Shown here piece after piece: positions 11,304-62,138 of a DNA stretch of 64,000 nucleotides. How positions within the stretch are numbered: position 1 is the stretch's first letter; each line of letters begins with the position of its first letter. The position numbers and the translations under genes are program-made. This stretch comes from Chloroflexota bacterium (lineage in GTDB: Bacteria; Chloroflexota; Dehalococcoidia; Lucifugimonadales; UBA3495): NCBI GenBank assembly GCA_028873965.1, contig JAPPMU010000062.1, forward strand, positions 62,001 through 126,000. The letters are read 5' to 3'. The notes beneath the pieces are model-generated. The model had not been told where the DNA came from and searched no databases. It saw only the letters and a list, made by a program, of their open reading frames with translations.

Positions 11304-11984
11304 ATGCTGAGATCAGATTACGAGCGCGATCTGTCGAGCCTGCAAGCCGACCTGGCGGAAATGGCGGCGCACGTCGAACAGGCGACCCTGCGCGCGCTGA
11401 AGGCCCTGGAAACCCAGGATCTGGAGCTGGCGCAAAGGATCATCGACGAAGACGACCACATCGACCGCCTGCAGGACAGCCTGGAAAACAAGTGCGTGGG
11501 GATGCTGGCCACCCAGCAACCCACGGCTATTGATCTCCGCCAGGTGATGTCGGCGGTGCATATCGCGGTGGAACTGGAGCGCATGGGAGACTATGCCGAA
11601 GGCATCGCCAAGATCTGCCTGCGCATCGGTGACCAGCCCCTGCTCAAGCCGTTGATCGACATTCCCCGCATGGCGGACCTGGCGCTGACCATGCTGCGGG
11701 AGAGCCTGGAGGCATATTCGGCGCGGGACGAATGGCAGGCGCGCAAGATCTGCCAGGACGACGACGCGGTGGACGACCTGTACAACCAGATTTACCGGGA
11801 ATTGCTGACCTACATGCTGCAAGACCCCCGCAACATCGAGCGGGCGACGTACCTGCTGTGGGTAGCGCATGACCTGGAGAGGATCGCCGACCGGGCCACC
11901 AACATCGCGGAACGGGTGATGTGGCTGGTTTCGGGGCATACCGTGGGTACCGGGAACGTAAAATCCGACCGGTCGCTGCGCTGA
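11304..11984 (+). CDS. phoU: phosphate signalling regulator PhoU
   Basis: 226 aa, two tandem three-helix bundles with the metal-binding E/DxxxD patterns (ELERMGDYAEGIAK in the first, DLERIADRATNIAE in the second). PhoU links PstSCAB to phosphate-regulon control and limits Pi uptake. Last gene of the pst operon; preceded by AAAGGGGGG. No phoB/phoR or pstS is present in the window. Confidence 0.95.
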   Translation: MLRSDYERDLSSLQADLAEMAAHVEQATLRALKALETQDLELAQRIIDEDDHIDRLQDSLENKCVGMLATQQPTAIDLRQVMSAVHIAVELERMGDYAEGIAKICLRIGDQPLLKPLIDIPRMADLALTMLRESLEAYSARDEWQARKICQDDDAVDDLYNQIYRELLTYMLQDPRNIERATYLLWVAHDLERIADRATNIAERVMWLVSGHTVGTGNVKSDRSLR

Positions 11985-12038: not shown

Positions 12039-12067
12039 TTGACAATTCCCGACCTCGGCAGTATAGT
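12039..12067 (+). promoter_or_regulatory. consensus sigma70 promoter of the sulfite reductase leader
   Basis: TTGACA (12039-12044), 17-nt spacer, TATAGT (12062-12067). This is the most canonical promoter in the window. The predicted start near 12074 is only a few bases before the leader-peptide ATG at 12076. Confidence 0.8.
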
Positions 12068-12075
12068 TTTCGCAA

Positions 12076-12144
12076 ATGCAGAGTAATTGCAAAAGGATTC
12101 GCATCTGCACATGTACCTGTCCCCCGACAGCGGGGGCAGGATAG
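12076..12144 (+). CDS. Cys-rich leader peptide (putative attenuator uORF)
   Basis: 22-codon ORF beginning ATG at 12076 and ending TAG 12142-12144. It reads MQSNCKRIRICTCTC followed by a Pro/Ala/Gly tail; four Cys codons are at 12088, 12106, 12112 and 12118, the last three clustered. It starts about 2 nt from the predicted transcription start, so it would be translated almost leaderless. It lies directly before two competing RNA structures and a terminator. Clustered codons of the amino acid made by the downstream pathway are the hallmark of ribosome-mediated attenuation; here they suggest sensing of Cys-tRNA. Too short to be certain as a gene. Confidence 0.65.
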   Translation: MQSNCKRIRICTCTCPPTAGAG

Positions 12145-12213
12145 ACCTGACTGAAAACTTCGGGTTCGCGCCTGCGCCCACCGGATTTGCCGTATGGCAA
12201 CGGTGGGTTTTTT
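12116..12213 (+). terminator. attenuator: pause hairpin, antiterminator and Rho-independent terminator
   Basis: Segment 1 CCTGTCCCCC (12116-12125) pairs with segment 2 GGGGGCAGG (12132-12140). Segment 3 CCTGCGCCC (12171-12179) can instead pair with segment 2 (GCAGG/CCTGC plus GGG/CCC). Segment 3 also overlaps the terminator's left arm CCCACCG (12177-12183), which pairs perfectly with CGGTGGG (12201-12207). An inner TTGCC/GGCAA stem and six Ts (12208-12213) complete the terminator. Pairing 2:3 excludes the terminator, as in classical amino-acid attenuators. Confidence 0.75.
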
Positions 12214-12239
12214 ATTGCCAGAAATCGGAGGAGGACACC

Positions 12240-14075
12240 TTGACCAGCCAAGCACAAATCCCCAGCCAGGAAGACATCCACGATTCCAGTATGCGGCTGG
12301 CGGCCGACGCGCCCGCGATCATTCCGTTCATGGAGGACGAGATACAGCGCTTCGACGCGGAGGTTGACCGGTTCCGCACCGGAGAACTGGACAACACCGT
12401 GTTCACGCCCTTCCGCTTGCGCCAGGGAGTGTACGGTCAGCGGCAGGCCGACGTGCAGATGATCCGGGTCAAGCTGCCGGGCGGCATCATCTCGGCGGAC
12501 ATGCTGGACTGCTTTGGCGACGTGACCGAAAAGTACGCCCCGCTGAAAAAGGGCCACATCACCACCCGGGAAAACATCCAGATACACCACATCCCGCTGG
12601 AGCAGACGTCCGAGGTGCTGCGCATCCTGGGCAGTGTGGGCCTGTCCAGCCGTGAGGCGTGCGGCAACACCGTCCGCAACGTGGTTGGACCTCCGACGGC
12701 TGGCGTGAGTCCGGAAGAAGTTTTCGACCCGACACCGTACCTGACGGCCTACGTGCGGTTCGGCGTGCGCCACCCCATCACGCAGAGCTTCCCGCGCAAG
12801 TTCAAGTCGGCGTTCACCGGCAACGACCAGCGCGACGAAGTGGCGGCGGCGATCCAGGACCTCACGTTCGTATCCCAGTACCAGGAAGTTGACGGGGAGC
12901 AGCGCAAGGGGTTCAAGGTGTACTGCGGCGGCGGCACGTCGATCATGCCGCGGCTGGCCAAACCGCTGTACGAGTGGGTGTCAGAGGATGACTACCTGCG
13001 CGTGGCCCTGGCCGTGTGGACGGTTTTCAACAACGCCGACATGCTGCGGAAAAACCGCATGATGGCGCGCCTCAAGGTGCTGATCGACCGCATCGGCCTG
13101 GACGAGTTCCGGGACATGGTGGACGCCGAGCTGGCGAACATCGAACCGATCGACTTCCGGCCGCTGATGACGGCCGAAGAGATCCAGCGCGAAGACCCAC
13201 CGGCGCAGCCGCCGGCCGGGAATGGCGATCACAGCGACTCCGAGTACCAGGCTTGGCTGGACGCGAACGTGGAAGCCCAGCGTCAGGACGGTTACCATGT
13301 CGTCTACATCAAGATAGTGCGCGGCGACCTCAGCCCGGAGCAATTCCGCGGGCTGGCCGACATCGTGCGGAAGTACACCGGCGGCAAGGCGCGGACCACG
13401 CAGGAACAGAACCTGGTGCTGCGTTGGGTCCCGACGGGCCACCTGTACAACGTCTGGGACGCGCTGAAGGCGCTGGAGTTGGCGGAAGCCGGACACAGCC
13501 ACATCAGCAACGTGGTGTCCTGCCCGGGCACGGACAGCTGCAAACTGGGAATCACCTCGTCCATGGGCCTGGCCCAGGCGCTGCGGACCGAGATGGCGGA
13601 TTGGAACGGCCTGTCCGAGGACAAGGGTGTGGGCGACATCCGCATCAAGATGAGCGGCTGCCCCAACGGCTGCGGCCTGCATCACATCGCCAACATCGGG
13701 TTCCACGGCGCGGCGGTCAAGGGCGTGGACGGACAGCAGATACCGTCCTACGAGCTGTTCCTGGGCGGAAACTACGGCGACAACCAGGTGGAAGACTCCC
13801 GCATCGGCACGCGGGTGCCCAAGGTGAAGGTGCCGGCCAAGCTGGTGCCGTCGGTCCTGAAAGACATCGTCACGTACTACAAGGACCACCGCGCCGACGA
13901 GTCCGAGCGTTTCAACGACTTCCTGGACCGGGTGGGCCTGGAAGAGATGACGTCGGTTGCAGCCCGCGCCCAGGAAGTCGGGCACGAAGCCGAGGGCGGC
14001 GGCGAGATGTACTTCGACTGGGAGCGGACCAACCAGTACGTGCTGGAGCGCGGCGAAGGCGAGTGCGCCGTCTAG
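12240..14075 (+). CDS. siroheme-dependent sulfite/nitrite reductase
   Basis: 611 aa with two ferredoxin-like/reductase repeats. The 4Fe-4S/siroheme ligands are C428 and C434 (SCPGTDSCKLG) and C474 and C478 (SGCPNGCG). It catalyses the six-electron reduction of sulfite to sulfide or nitrite to ammonium. Sequence alone does not separate the two, but the Cys-rich leader upstream favours sulfite reduction for cysteine synthesis. The TTG start at 12240 directly follows GGAGGAGG; a longer reading frame upstream runs through the terminator and is not believed. hemD follows 18 nt later. Confidence 0.9.
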   Translation: MTSQAQIPSQEDIHDSSMRLAADAPAIIPFMEDEIQRFDAEVDRFRTGELDNTVFTPFRLRQGVYGQRQADVQMIRVKLPGGIISADMLDCFGDVTEKYAPLKKGHITTRENIQIHHIPLEQTSEVLRILGSVGLSSREACGNTVRNVVGPPTAGVSPEEVFDPTPYLTAYVRFGVRHPITQSFPRKFKSAFTGNDQRDEVAAAIQDLTFVSQYQEVDGEQRKGFKVYCGGGTSIMPRLAKPLYEWVSEDDYLRVALAVWTVFNNADMLRKNRMMARLKVLIDRIGLDEFRDMVDAELANIEPIDFRPLMTAEEIQREDPPAQPPAGNGDHSDSEYQAWLDANVEAQRQDGYHVVYIKIVRGDLSPEQFRGLADIVRKYTGGKARTTQEQNLVLRWVPTGHLYNVWDALKALELAEAGHSHISNVVSCPGTDSCKLGITSSMGLAQALRTEMADWNGLSEDKGVGDIRIKMSGCPNGCGLHHIANIGFHGAAVKGVDGQQIPSYELFLGGNYGDNQVEDSRIGTRVPKVKVPAKLVPSVLKDIVTYYKDHRADESERFNDFLDRVGLEEMTSVAARAQEVGHEAEGGGEMYFDWERTNQYVLERGEGECAV

Positions 14076-14093: not shown

Positions 14094-14918
14094 ATGGCCA
14101 GGGCATCGCTTAACGGTAGAGTGCTGGCCTTCGTCGAGGCGCGGATGCCCGACGAAATGGCCAGCCTCATTCGCCGGCACGGCGGCGTCCCAATCGGGGC
14201 GCCGGTCATGCAGGAGCACTACCTGCAGGACAGCCCGCAAGTGCAGCGGGCCATTCTCGATGTTTGCGCAGGGCGCGTCGATGCCGCCATCTTCCTGACC
14301 GGGGTGGGTGCGAACGCGATGATGGGCATCGCCGAGGGCATGGGCCGGCTGGCGGAGTTTGAAGAGGCTTTGCGCGGGATCACGGTGGTGGCGCGCAGCC
14401 CGAAACCGGGGCGGATCCTGCGGCGCCACAAGATCCCCATCGACATCATGCCGCCGGAGCCGTACACCTCAAGCGACCTGATCGCGGCGATGCGTGATCT
14501 GGAGTTCGAACGCAAACGGGTGATTTTCCAGCGCTACGGCGGCCCGGACTCCGAGTTGCCCACGTATCTGCGGGAGCAACGAGCGGACTACGAAGAGCTG
14601 ACGTTATACGACTGGGGTTTGCCCAATGACCCTGCGCCGGTGGTTGATCTGATCGACCGGATGGAGCGAGGCGATATCGACGCCCTGGCGTTCACCAGCC
14701 GGCCACAGGTGCCAAACCTGATTGGCATCGCCGCCGACGCCGGGCGCGAAGATTCACTGCGACAGAGCCTTGAGGGAACGGTGGTCGTGGCCTCAGTGGG
14801 CCCGGTGTGCACCCGGAAATTGCAGGAGTTCGGCATCGGAGTGGACGTGGAACCGGACCACCCGCACATGGGTAACCTGGTAATGGCGGTGGCGGAGTAC
14901 TTCGGAGACTCCGCCTAG
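14094..14918 (+). CDS. hemD: uroporphyrinogen-III synthase
   Basis: 274 aa, the two-lobed HemD fold with the FLTGVGAN and AFTSRPQV strands and the typical SVGPVCTRKLQEFGI near-C-terminal motif. It closes the tetrapyrrole ring to uroporphyrinogen III, the branch point to siroheme. Located 18 nt after the siroheme-dependent reductase and so probably co-transcribed, supplying its cofactor. Convergent with, and overlapping by 4 nt, the cupin gene. Confidence 0.9.
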   Translation: MARASLNGRVLAFVEARMPDEMASLIRRHGGVPIGAPVMQEHYLQDSPQVQRAILDVCAGRVDAAIFLTGVGANAMMGIAEGMGRLAEFEEALRGITVVARSPKPGRILRRHKIPIDIMPPEPYTSSDLIAAMRDLEFERKRVIFQRYGGPDSELPTYLREQRADYEELTLYDWGLPNDPAPVVDLIDRMERGDIDALAFTSRPQVPNLIGIAADAGREDSLRQSLEGTVVVASVGPVCTRKLQEFGIGVDVEPDHPHMGNLVMAVAEYFGDSA

Positions 14919-16270: not shown

Positions 16271-17464
16271 CTAACCCCGGCGCAGGTTTCCAATCCGGCG
16301 GTATGCTCGCACTGCCCCTGCCGAAAGCGCAGGTACCACCCTGCCCAGGCTGAACGTGCGCGCCCGGCCGGGGAGGAACTCTTCGGCGTGCAAGTCGTCG
16401 ATTGCCGCCAGGGTGCGGCCCAGACCGATTTCCATGGTGCGATGGCTGGCTTCGTCGTTGAGGTCCAGGCTGCCGCAGGTGAAGACCGCGCCGATCAGGC
16501 AGCTCAGCATCACCTGTCGATAGCTGCGCCAACACTCATCAACGGAGTAACCGCCGACGCCGGCGCCGACCAGGGCATCGTGGTATTCGCCTACGACATC
16601 CTGCTCAATCGCGCGACGGGTTTCGGGTGTTACGCTGGTGGATAGCAGGTAAGTTATGTCACGCAATCCGGAGTGAATGCCGCCGTTTTGCCAATCGATC
16701 GCCACCACGTCATCGATGCCCGGTCCGTCAAAAAAGAGGTTGTCCACCCTGAAATCCCCGTGGGTGAAGGTCTTGGGCCCCCTGGATATGTCGGACAGGT
16801 GATCGGCGATCCGGGCGCCATAGGTCTCGACGACACTACGCGTTTCGGGATTGAACAGGCTGCCGAAACGGTCAAGGGTGCGCGGCAGATTGAGCGCGTA
16901 GCCAAGTTGGGTCAGCCGGCGATATTTCCTGGAGTAGTCCGGCGCATTCGACAACACGGTGTGGTCAAGGTTGTTCCAGTAGCGGGCGTGCATCCTGGCG
17001 ACCGCGCGGACAGCGGACTTTGCCTGGACAGGGCTGGCTCCATTTACCTGGCTAACCGTTTCCAAATCGGCCAAATCTTCCAGGACCATCACGAACCGGT
17101 GGCTGACGGGAGCGAAATCGCCATAGAGCAACGCCGGGGCGCGGATGACGGCAAACGGCCGGATACGACGGTAAAATTCGTACTCCTGCCGATACAGCGT
17201 CAGGATACGGGCGAGCCGGAACGTTTTGCGATCAGCACTGTGGCATTTGACGATCACGCTGGCAGGCTGCTGCGGAGCATCGACCGACCACACCAAATGG
17301 CAACGAATAACCGTGCTGAGCAGTCCTCGACCGGGACCCACAGGTTCGGCGCGAATAGCCCGCAACTGCGAAGGTTCGAAGCCGGACGAGGAGGCCAACG
17401 CCTGCCAGAGCCAGTCATGATTTACGTCATGTGGGCCCGCGGGGATGGCAGGACGCCTGGCCAT
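16271..17464 (-). CDS. phosphotransferase (aminoglycoside/ecdysteroid kinase-like)
   Basis: 397 aa protein-kinase-fold small-molecule phosphotransferase. It has a putative ATP-lysine at VIVKCH (K73), a hinge around VLEDL, the Brenner motif HGDFRVDN (H235, D237, N242) and the metal Asp in AIDWQ (D257). Substrate unknown. A clear paralogue (same ALLYGDF, ARMHxRYWN, HGDFRxDN and DDLxAEEFLP words) lies next to it on the same strand, so a tandem duplication is likely. Confidence 0.82.
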   Translation of the reverse strand: MARRPAIPAGPHDVNHDWLWQALASSSGFEPSQLRAIRAEPVGPGRGLLSTVIRCHLVWSVDAPQQPASVIVKCHSADRKTFRLARILTLYRQEYEFYRRIRPFAVIRAPALLYGDFAPVSHRFVMVLEDLADLETVSQVNGASPVQAKSAVRAVARMHARYWNNLDHTVLSNAPDYSRKYRRLTQLGYALNLPRTLDRFGSLFNPETRSVVETYGARIADHLSDISRGPKTFTHGDFRVDNLFFDGPGIDDVVAIDWQNGGIHSGLRDITYLLSTSVTPETRRAIEQDVVGEYHDALVGAGVGGYSVDECWRSYRQVMLSCLIGAVFTCGSLDLNDEASHRTMEIGLGRTLAAIDDLHAEEFLPGRARTFSLGRVVPALSAGAVRAYRRIGNLRRG

Positions 17465-17492: not shown

Positions 17493-18608
17493 TCAAGGAA
17501 TAGCGCTAGCGGGCAGGAACTCCTCGGCATCCAGGTCGTCGATGGCGGTGAGGGTGCGAGTGACGAATGCTTCGGCCAGTTGGCGGCTTCGCTGGCTGCT
17601 GAGATCCAGCTGCCCGCTGGCTATGATCAGAGTCTGGAAGCAACCGAGCATATTCTGCCGGTAGCTGCGCCAGCACGCCTCGTGCGTGAAGTCCGTGACT
17701 TCCGTGCTCACGAGGACGCGGTGATACTCCTCCACGGCGTCAGCCTCGATCTGACGACGGATTTCGACCGGGACGCTGGAGGAGAGGAAATAGGCGACGT
17801 CGTAAAGCCCGCTGCGCACGCCGCACACCTGCCAGTCCACGACGGCAAATTCATCGCTTCCGTCGGCGCCGAAGAACATATTATCCAGACGGAAATCGCC
17901 GTGGCTGAAGGTCAGCGGGCCGGCAGCGACCGCGTCCGTATGCTCCACCAGCCCGCGTCCGTATGCTTCGGCCAACCGTCGCATCCGGTCTGGGAACAGG
18001 CTGCCCATGCGTTCAAACGCGGCCGGCAGGCTGGCCTGATAAACGTGCTGTACCAAGCGCCGGCGCTCGGGACTGGCAGATTCGTGGAATCCGGAAACGG
18101 GCGGCCGGTCCACCCGATTCCAGTAGCGGCCGTGCATACGGGCGATCGCCCGTACCGCGGTTTTCGCCGGCGCGGCGCCCGCCCCATCGATCTGATCCAC
18201 CCTGGTCATTCCGCGAAGGTCTTCCAGCACCAGAACGAAACGGTGGTCATGGTCGTCGAAGTCGCCGTAGAGCAGAGCCGGCGAACGCAGGGGAACATGC
18301 GGCGCCATCTCACGATAGAAGGCGTATTCGCGGGCGTACAGGCGCAGCCTCCGCGCGGTCTGAACCGTCTCCGGGTGCGAACTGTGCAGCTTGACGATGA
18401 CCGAGCCCGGCATGGCGAGGGCATCGTCCTCGTAGGACAGATGGCAGCGCAGGATGGTTCCCACCATTCCGACGCCGGCGCCGATGTTTTCAACGTCCAC
18501 TGCGGCGATGGCGGAACCGACGATAGAGCCGCCGGCGGTCAATGCTTGCTGCATCCAGCCGGCGGTTATGTCCGTTGCCGTCGTGGGTATTTGAGGGACG
18601 GTTGCCAT
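17493..18608 (-). CDS. phosphotransferase paralogue (aminoglycoside/ecdysteroid kinase-like)
   Basis: 371 aa, tandem paralogue of the preceding phosphotransferase. Motifs are VIVKLH (K73), HGDFRLDN (H236, D238, N243) and VVDWQ (D258). The start was set at ATG 18608, where homology with the paralogue begins. There is no clear RBS, and a TACAAT -10-like box sits 7 nt upstream, so the mRNA might be leaderless. First of the pair in transcription order, with 28 nt between the two genes. Confidence 0.82.
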   Translation of the reverse strand: MATVPQIPTTATDITAGWMQQALTAGGSIVGSAIAAVDVENIGAGVGMVGTILRCHLSYEDDALAMPGSVIVKLHSSHPETVQTARRLRLYAREYAFYREMAPHVPLRSPALLYGDFDDHDHRFVLVLEDLRGMTRVDQIDGAGAAPAKTAVRAIARMHGRYWNRVDRPPVSGFHESASPERRRLVQHVYQASLPAAFERMGSLFPDRMRRLAEAYGRGLVEHTDAVAAGPLTFSHGDFRLDNMFFGADGSDEFAVVDWQVCGVRSGLYDVAYFLSSSVPVEIRRQIEADAVEEYHRVLVSTEVTDFTHEACWRSYRQNMLGCFQTLIIASGQLDLSSQRSRQLAEAFVTRTLTAIDDLDAEEFLPASAIP

Positions 18609-18685
18609 GGTTCTATTGTAAGGGGTGAGAAGGAAGCGGAGAAATTGGCGGCACTGATGCGGGCACCCCGCTCTGGGCAAAATGA

Positions 18686-18709
18686 AGGGGCGAATGATCA
18701 TTCGCCCCT
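18686..18709. repeat. 24-bp perfect palindrome, copy 1
   Basis: Half-site AGGGGCGAATGA followed by its exact reverse complement. The identical 24 bp recur at 34912-34935. It lies in the gap between the ThDP enzyme stop and the phosphotransferase start. REP-like dispersed palindrome. Confidence 0.85.
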
Positions 18710-58971: not shown

Positions 58972-59046
58972 TGGTAGCGGGGGTTGGACTCGAACCAACG
59001 ACCTTCGGGTTATGAGCCCGACGAGCTGCCACTGCTCCACCCCGCG
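58972..59046 (-). tRNA. initiator tRNA-fMet (CAU)
   Basis: Cloverleaf reads on the minus strand with CCA encoded (58974-58972). The anticodon is CAU. It has the two initiator marks: an unpaired 1-72 position (C against U) and three G-C pairs (GGG/CCC) at the base of the anticodon stem. The T-arm GTTGG-TTCGAGT-CCAAC is intact. It lies about 105 nt after the 23S 3' end and was probably co-transcribed with it. Confidence 0.93.
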
Positions 59047-59151
59047 ATGTGGCGCCGAAGCGCCTGGCAACTGAACAGGAAATCTGAACTTAGCGATCGA
59101 TTTTGATGATGAGCGCCGAACCGAGCCAAGAGAAATTAGAAGCTCTTAGCG

Positions 59152-62138
<2,987 letters not shown>

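Follow-up and report, generated by a model that had tools for sequence, protein, structure and literature searches.

In the trp-, his- and leu-type attenuators of Proteobacteria, translation of the leader open reading frame (ORF) is initiated at a Shine-Dalgarno site that follows a 5′ untranslated region. For cysteine, a different kind of leader has been described in mycobacteria, where leaderless polycysteine small ORFs (sORFs) bring about cysteine-responsive translation attenuation (Canestrari et al. 2020, as represented in the available excerpts of PMC13236596, PMC9094748 and PMC9031893); small upstream Cys ORFs in these bacteria had been observed earlier (excerpt of PMC4633059). Cys-rich leader peptides have likewise been predicted for actinobacterial cys operons, and, according to the excerpted account, a conserved terminator hairpin was not found in the cys leaders of mycobacteria (PMC1262725). 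Two further systems are relevant here, again as given in excerpts of the respective reports: the uORFC-8-2 motif of the Rhodobacterales cysS leader, for which ribosome-mediated attenuation was proposed (PMC8632094), and the ilvB1 attenuator of Mycobacterium tuberculosis, in which an upstream ORF (uORF) with branched-chain codons drives a terminator/antiterminator switch (PMC13236596). In the present study we analyzed a stretch of 64,000 nucleotides (nt) from a Chloroflexota bacterium of the class Dehalococcoidia, order Lucifugimonadales, family UBA3495 (assembly GCA_028873965.1, contig JAPPMU010000062.1, positions 62,001 to 126,000), hereafter the window, in which a short ORF with clustered Cys codons precedes a gene of the siroheme sulfite/nitrite reductase family. 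We consider it highly probable that this leader is a ribosome-mediated transcription attenuator responding to charged tRNA-Cys, as suggested by its parts, their conservation and geometry, the specificity for Cys codons and the presence of a related leader at a second operon.

The leader occupies the gap between the upstream neighbour phoU, which ends at position 11984, and the reductase gene, which begins at 12240. Successively, and on the forward strand, this gap holds a promoter close to consensus, an ORF of 22 codons, three alternating RNA segments, a terminator and a ribosome binding site (RBS). The promoter is of the sigma-70 type (TTGACA-N17-TATAGT, 12039-12067, with TTGACA at 12039-12044, a 17-nt spacer and TATAGT at 12062-12067) and matches the consensus at 11 of 12 positions, 0.3 such promoters being expected in the region. 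The ORF (12076-12144, ATG at 12076, TAG at 12142-12144) encodes the peptide MQSNCKRIRICTCTCPPTAGAG and has Cys codons at 12088, 12106, 12112 and 12118. Segment 1 (CCTGTCCCCC, 12116-12125) lies within the ORF and pairs with segment 2 (GGGGGCAGG, 12132-12140), which can alternatively pair with its antiterminator partner, segment 3 (CCTGCGCCC, 12171-12179). The intrinsic terminator (12177-12213) has arms at 12177-12183 and 12201-12207 and six T residues at 12208-12213. A preliminary description of this DNA, made from the sequence alone, had reported the promoter, the ORF with its cluster of Cys codons and the three segments with their alternative pairing, and all of these parts are present where it placed them. 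Two details need to be corrected. The terminator with its six T residues was correctly recognized, but the run of T residues ends 26 nt before the start codon of the reductase gene, not before its RBS, which is 13 nt away (strong by visual inspection; GGAGGAGG, 12227-12234). Moreover, segment 3 had been said to contain the left arm of the terminator, and in fact the two have only three bases in common (12177-12179).

Searches of 50 genomes of the family yielded 47 orthologous reductase loci, 45 of which have readable upstream DNA; the other two (L015 and L022) lie at contig edges and were excluded. The start codons of four loci (L013, L042, L044 and L045) were set by hand in place of the rule-based choice, and several placements of the T run were corrected by hand in the alignment references for the 45 leaders. 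With a fixed rule, a Cys-rich leader ORF was detected in all 45 orthologues, so that the conservation of the ORF and its Cys codons, proposed in the preliminary description as a check, was indeed observed. An overlapping hairpin and an antiterminator segment are likewise present in all 45 leaders, as is a matching U-tailed terminator, apart from alignment doubts in two of them. The promoter contains TTGACA in 43 of the 45 leaders and a 17-nt spacer in 42, and its −10 box is variable. The Cys residues of the encoded peptides are mostly in CxC spacing; the first half of the peptides is variable and their C-terminal end mostly reads CxCxCPPT or similar.

The distance between promoter and start codon is nearly fixed. 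In the window the leader ORF starts 8 nt after the −10 box, and in 43 of the 45 family leaders the start codon is found 6-9 nt past this box, at exactly 8 nt in 35 of these 43 (for L013 and L045 the spacing was read from their duplicate copies). The leader ORF is therefore probably leaderless, the 5′ end of the message being predicted at the ATG or within one or two bases of it, because a transcript from such a promoter should begin at about the start codon, which leaves no room for a Shine-Dalgarno site. The preliminary description makes no mention of this feature.

The pairing potential of the leader RNA was assessed on the 45-leader alignment. In the terminator helix 97.6% of the cells are paired, compared with 32-53% in slid controls, and five of its seven pairs have changed on both sides. 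Helix 1:2, which overlaps the Cys codons, is 85.4% paired (slid controls at most 66%), and helix 2:3 is 85.7% paired (slid controls at most 58%). A permutation swap test prefers the cognate pairing partners in each of the three helices (1, 1 and 0 of the 5000 permutations did equally well); it ignores kinship and we give it little weight.

The consequences of ribosome position were examined by folding 43 leaders, L042 and L044 being excluded, with the footprint of a modelled ribosome masked, which spanned from 17 nt on the 5′ side of the first base in the A-site codon to 12 nt on its 3′ side. The RNA was taken to end just past segment 3, which represents the state before segment 4 is made. With the A site at the last Cys codon, 35 of the 43 leaders gave at least three expected 2:3 pairs; none did so with the ribosome at the stop codon, and 11 did so without a ribosome. 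The corresponding means were 5.9, 0.0 and 1.5 expected pairs. When the stalling position was scanned codon by codon, 2:3 pairing climbed across the Cys cluster and fell to nil within three codons past the last Cys codon. This behavior is matched by a restricted geometry: counted from the first base of the last Cys codon, segment 2 starts exactly 14 nt downstream in 34 of the 43 leaders, that of the window included, and 9 nt downstream in the other nine. In 19 leaders the stop codon falls in the hairpin loop, its first base 2 nt ahead of segment 2; in the remaining 24, among them the window leader, it lies just past segment 2.

From this arrangement we infer where transcription starts, that the ORF is translated, that ribosomes stall, that transcription terminates and that the system responds to cysteine; the events may be pictured as follows. 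The message would start at the leader ATG or within one or two bases of it, and the ribosome would therefore load directly on the 5′ end. When cysteine is plentiful, the ribosome would reach the stop codon and cover segment 2, leaving segment 3 free; the terminator could then form and transcription would end at about 12213. When cysteine is short, a ribosome stalled at the Cys cluster would cover segment 1 only, segments 2 and 3 would pair ahead of the synthesis of segment 4, and RNA polymerase would continue into the sulfite reductase gene and the following hemD-type gene. In the absence of a ribosome, the 1:2 hairpin would form in most cases and the terminator would again be favoured. The same device would operate ahead of an operon with a MoeB-like gene and a cysteine synthase gene in the same genome.

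This second leader, which the preliminary description could not have covered, was found with a covariance model (R1) that was built from the reductase leaders alone and run over 49 family genomes; the E-values of R1 are rough, as they derive from a short calibration, and filters were set more strictly in runs that covered more than 40 genomes. At E-values up to 0.5, R1 matched 45 reductase leaders, one fragment of the reductase-leader type at a contig end with no gene visible (L236), and 38 other places. These 38 places correspond to one second leader in 38 of the 49 genomes, and all 38 precede a MoeB/ThiF-like gene and a cysteine synthase gene as judged by tblastn. In the genome of the window the synthase passes the cysKM cut-off, and nusA is the next gene. 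The leaders of this operon, here termed cysM leaders, have two to four Cys codons. In the folded set, for which 36 of the 38 were given, one (L227) was dropped and 35 were judged, the distance from the first base of the final Cys codon to the stop codon is 12 nt. Placing the ribosome at the final Cys codon gave at least four expected 2:3 pairs in 33 of the 35; this number was reached in none with the ribosome at the stop codon and in seven when it was omitted. In the full RNA, the mean number of 3:4 pairs falls from 6.3 with the ribosome at the stop codon to 3.7 at the last Cys codon; terminator and antiterminator have most of the bases of segment 3 in common in these leaders. The cysM terminator covaries, with 97.5% of cells paired and two pairs changed on both sides. 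By visual inspection, the start codons are mostly located 9-11 nt from the −10 box, somewhat further than in the reductase leaders, and we therefore describe the cysM leaders as near-leaderless. A second model (R2), run over the 49 family genomes, additionally matched two leaders ahead of the same MoeB-like and cysteine synthase genes, one of them cut by a contig end (L277) and the other with a single Cys codon (L276), and gave no strong third type of leader, with weak matches (E-values 0.03-0.8) at six other places. Four loci (L198, L199, L205 and L210) have nusA after the MoeB-like/cysteine synthase pair within the locus. If nusA is co-transcribed with this pair, cysteine supply could touch its expression.

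Beyond the family, a relative of the reductase (E-value up to 1e-100) is present in 170 of 250 genomes of the order. Upstream regions were scanned in a sample of 60 further loci of the order and 80 loci from the best-match list, with a leader rule that demands three Cys codons in 10 codons behind a promoter; four loci (L107, L114, L184 and L186) were excluded, the last three being too short. The rule was passed by 46 of 136 upstream regions. Removal of 16 family duplicates and 13 further duplicate upstreams left 107 unique non-family regions, of which 26 pass, as opposed to 0.75% of dinucleotide shuffles; with a strong promoter 18 of the 107 pass, as opposed to 0.05% of shuffles. At this strong setting none of the other amino acids rises above 6 of 107. 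No passes were found among the few loci labelled Actinobacteria, Thermoleophilia, Solirubrobacterales, Binatia or Nitrospinota. Two loci that fail the rule (L048 and L052) nevertheless hold two-Cys leaders at R1 matches, and the rule undercounts because it demands three Cys codons. In the upstream regions of trpE from 24 family genomes, the Cys rule was passed once and the corresponding Trp rule not at all. A simple Cys pattern, run across the window's own genome, gave 59 matches compared with 27 in a reversed control and was dropped because it was too unspecific.

Applied to 247 genomes of the order, R1 gave matches at E-values up to 0.05 in 59 genomes. Ten of these are not of the family and together contribute 11 places. 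Two of these places are the reductase leaders L048 and L052, and the other nine (L237-L245) are distributed over eight genomes. One is followed by cysH and cysD (L237), one by cysH (L241), one by TusA (L242), one by a TauE-type permease, cysH and cysC (L244) and one by the reductase (L245). In L239 (genome G134) the leader precedes genes for a YeeE/YedE-type sulfur transporter, TusA and a rhodanese; by translation, L240 (G130) and L243 (G132) have the same layout and L238 a fragment of it. The genomes G130, G132 and G134 carry the leader though they are absent from the list of genomes with a reductase match. These three are small genomes of one genus, and the Cys leader before their transporter, TusA and rhodanese genes is nearly identical (NCCCCTPLNGVI or NCCCCTPLDGVI). 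Class-wide, R1 matches at E-values up to 0.01 were obtained in 5 of 393 genomes drawn evenly, with only two of the family among them, and one of the matches lies outside the order. That match (L275, genome G285) is weak, precedes a YeeE-rhodanese-TusA cluster as judged by translation and has two Cys codons, with no leaderless promoter visible. Eleven distant paralogues of the reductase (27-31% identity) gave no R1 match.

Several of our results weigh against transcription attenuation as the function of these leaders. Helix 1:2 varies by wobble only, without any two-sided change, and helix 2:3 has a two-sided change at a single pair, in six rows of the alignment. Some slid registers of both helices even exceed the true register in two-sided changes, which means that the support for 1:2 and 2:3 comes from conservation and pairing percentage, not from covariation. 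Helices 2:3 and 1:2 of the cysM leaders likewise lack covariation beyond shuffles. The covariation anticipated in the preliminary description is thus borne out for the terminator, and is weak or nil for the two alternative helices. Two reductase leaders (L042 and L044) have no convincing promoter, and their segments and terminator region cannot be aligned; one leader ahead of the MoeB-like and cysteine synthase genes (L276, genome G017) retains the promoter and is down to a single Cys codon; and 81 of the 107 unique upstream regions of reductase genes from outside the family do not pass the leader rule. In 8 of the 43 folded leaders, six of which belong to genus g16, folding predicts no antiterminator with the ribosome at the last Cys codon. 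At equilibrium in the full RNA, the mean value of the basal terminator pairs decreases only from 0.94 with the ribosome at the stop codon to 0.75 at the last Cys codon (from 0.97 to 0.61 in the window), and it drops below 0.5 in just 10 of the 43 leaders. As the terminator usually still wins at equilibrium, the switch must be kinetic, with 2:3 forming first. Finally, the RBS is slightly more accessible with the ribosome at the last Cys codon than at the stop codon (mean 0.39 versus 0.33; an increase of more than 0.1 in 14 of the 45 leaders and a decrease in three), so that translation might be affected as well.

The persistence of the terminator at equilibrium and the more open RBS are also what would be expected if stalling freed or coupled the downstream RBS, as in the translation attenuation of mycobacteria, and if the hairpin and T run were incidental; moreover, translation is the level at which the closest known leaders of the leaderless polycysteine type act, according to the excerpts cited above. 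Nonetheless, the terminator with its U run is the strongest covarying element in both classes of leader, the change in RBS accessibility is at most 0.1 in 28 of the 45 leaders, and the distance from the T run to the reductase start codon ranges from about 22 to 76 nt in leaders with a properly placed T run. We therefore regard translation attenuation as unlikely. That the leader encodes a functional small Cys-rich peptide for metal or thiol binding, the hairpins being the ordinary terminator of a short transcription unit, would fit the retention of CxCxCPPT in many members. However, the N-terminal half differs freely among genera, and what is kept is the Cys cluster together with the codons overlapping with segment 1. 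Segments 2 and 3 are conserved even though the latter falls downstream of the ORF in each of the 43 folded leaders and the former follows the stop codon in 19 of them, and the design recurs ahead of several different Cys-pathway operons, which makes a functional peptide very improbable. A metabolite-binding riboswitch or T-box with a coincidental ORF would suit the position upstream of a biosynthetic gene and the presence of a terminator, but is barely credible given that the Cys codons stand at a fixed distance from segment 2 and that no Rfam family was found in the leader region at the gathering threshold (up to an E-value of 1, only a sub-threshold U8 match on the opposite strand). The comparison of related genomes thus supports the interpretation as a cysteine attenuator given in the preliminary description.

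The gene downstream of the window leader (12240-14075, TTG start codon) contains the domains PF01077 and PF03460 and belongs to the siroheme sulfite/nitrite reductase family; no NCBIfam model scored above its cut-off. Its best solved relative is NirA of M. tuberculosis (1zj8), and all 13 relatives aligned retain its Cys141, which is part of an EACG motif. This motif aligns with the EACG of NirA, and the plant nitrite reductase in the comparison has no Cys at that position. Despite its name, NirA is a sulfite reductase and contains a Tyr-Cys cross-link. A sulfite reductase is the likely identity of the window protein, because of its NIR_SIR domains, the solved relative, the Cys141/EACG match and the neighbouring gene of the uroporphyrinogen-III synthase (HemD) family (14094-14918, forward strand, PF02602), which would serve a siroheme precursor step and is likely to be co-transcribed with the reductase gene. 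Among the best 80 matches, the closest labelled relatives (84-93% identity) are annotated as uncultured Dehalococcoidia or Dehalococcoidia bacterium, and further members of the family as SAR202 cluster or Chloroflexi. The reading frame of the reductase stays open back to 12087, across the terminator and the leader (12087-12239, forward strand); gene callers may therefore set the start too early and thereby hide the leader. The leaders also point to small genes that annotation may miss.

Elsewhere in the window, a 23S rRNA gene and a tRNA gene are located at 58975-62136 on the reverse strand. No match to 16S or 5S rRNA was found at the gathering threshold within the 64 kb, so that the rRNA genes may be unlinked. 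Two adjoining ORFs on the reverse strand (16271-17464 and 17493-18701) have similar HGDFR.DN motifs and presumably encode proteins resembling those of the aminoglycoside-phosphotransferase fold.

Uncultured Dehalococcoidia of the SAR202 type very probably make sulfite reductase only when cysteine runs short. About evenly balanced, in our judgement, is the broader proposal of an order-wide cysteine regulon that operates by RNA only and needs no shared transcription factor, and in which leaderless initiation is part of the switch, the ribosome loading once the 5′ end emerges. Such a regulon would cover sulfite reductase, cysteine synthase, adenylylsulfate/phosphoadenylylsulfate (APS/PAPS) reductase, sulfate activation and sulfur uptake genes, with leaders that are leaderless or near-leaderless. 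If the attenuator interpretation is true, it would provide a testable account of the control of sulfur assimilation in mostly uncultured SAR202-type bacteria, predict that two operons respond to cysteine in most family genomes, and imply that attenuation during transcription can operate with a leaderless start.

No cysteine attenuator in Chloroflexota or SAR202 was found among the matches listed in the open-licence literature, and the present leader would join two features known separately until now, namely leaderless Cys leader ORFs and terminator/antiterminator attenuation. Like the trp, his and leu attenuators, it has a leader peptide rich in the regulated amino acid and segments that can pair as 1:2, 2:3 and 3:4; unlike them, its ORF is predicted to begin at the 5′ end or close to it, and cysteine is the amino acid concerned. 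With ilvB1, as excerpted, it would share a terminator/antiterminator switch driven by a uORF outside the Proteobacteria, but it differs in its cysteine codons, pathway and phylum. The uORFC-8-2 motif similarly has Cys codons in a uORF inside the first stem, followed by an intrinsic terminator. The excerpt of its description gives two tandem Cys codons, usually at positions 14-15, and cysS of Alphaproteobacteria only, with no mention there of a leaderless start, whereas the leaders described here have two to six Cys codons, mostly in CxC spacing, and precede biosynthetic operons. The mycobacterial polycysteine sORFs, as far as the excerpts cover them, are similar in that a short ORF with clustered Cys codons, predicted to be leaderless in our case, precedes sulfur or cysteine genes. 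The present leaders differ from them in belonging to another phylum and in possessing a putative antiterminator and a covarying intrinsic terminator, and because of this conserved terminator we have not assigned them to that family. The device would thus work like a trp-type attenuator and resemble the mycobacterial leaders in its start, while remaining separate from both named Cys families; the combination of a leaderless Cys ORF with a terminator switch, the lineage and the use at multiple operons appear to be new.

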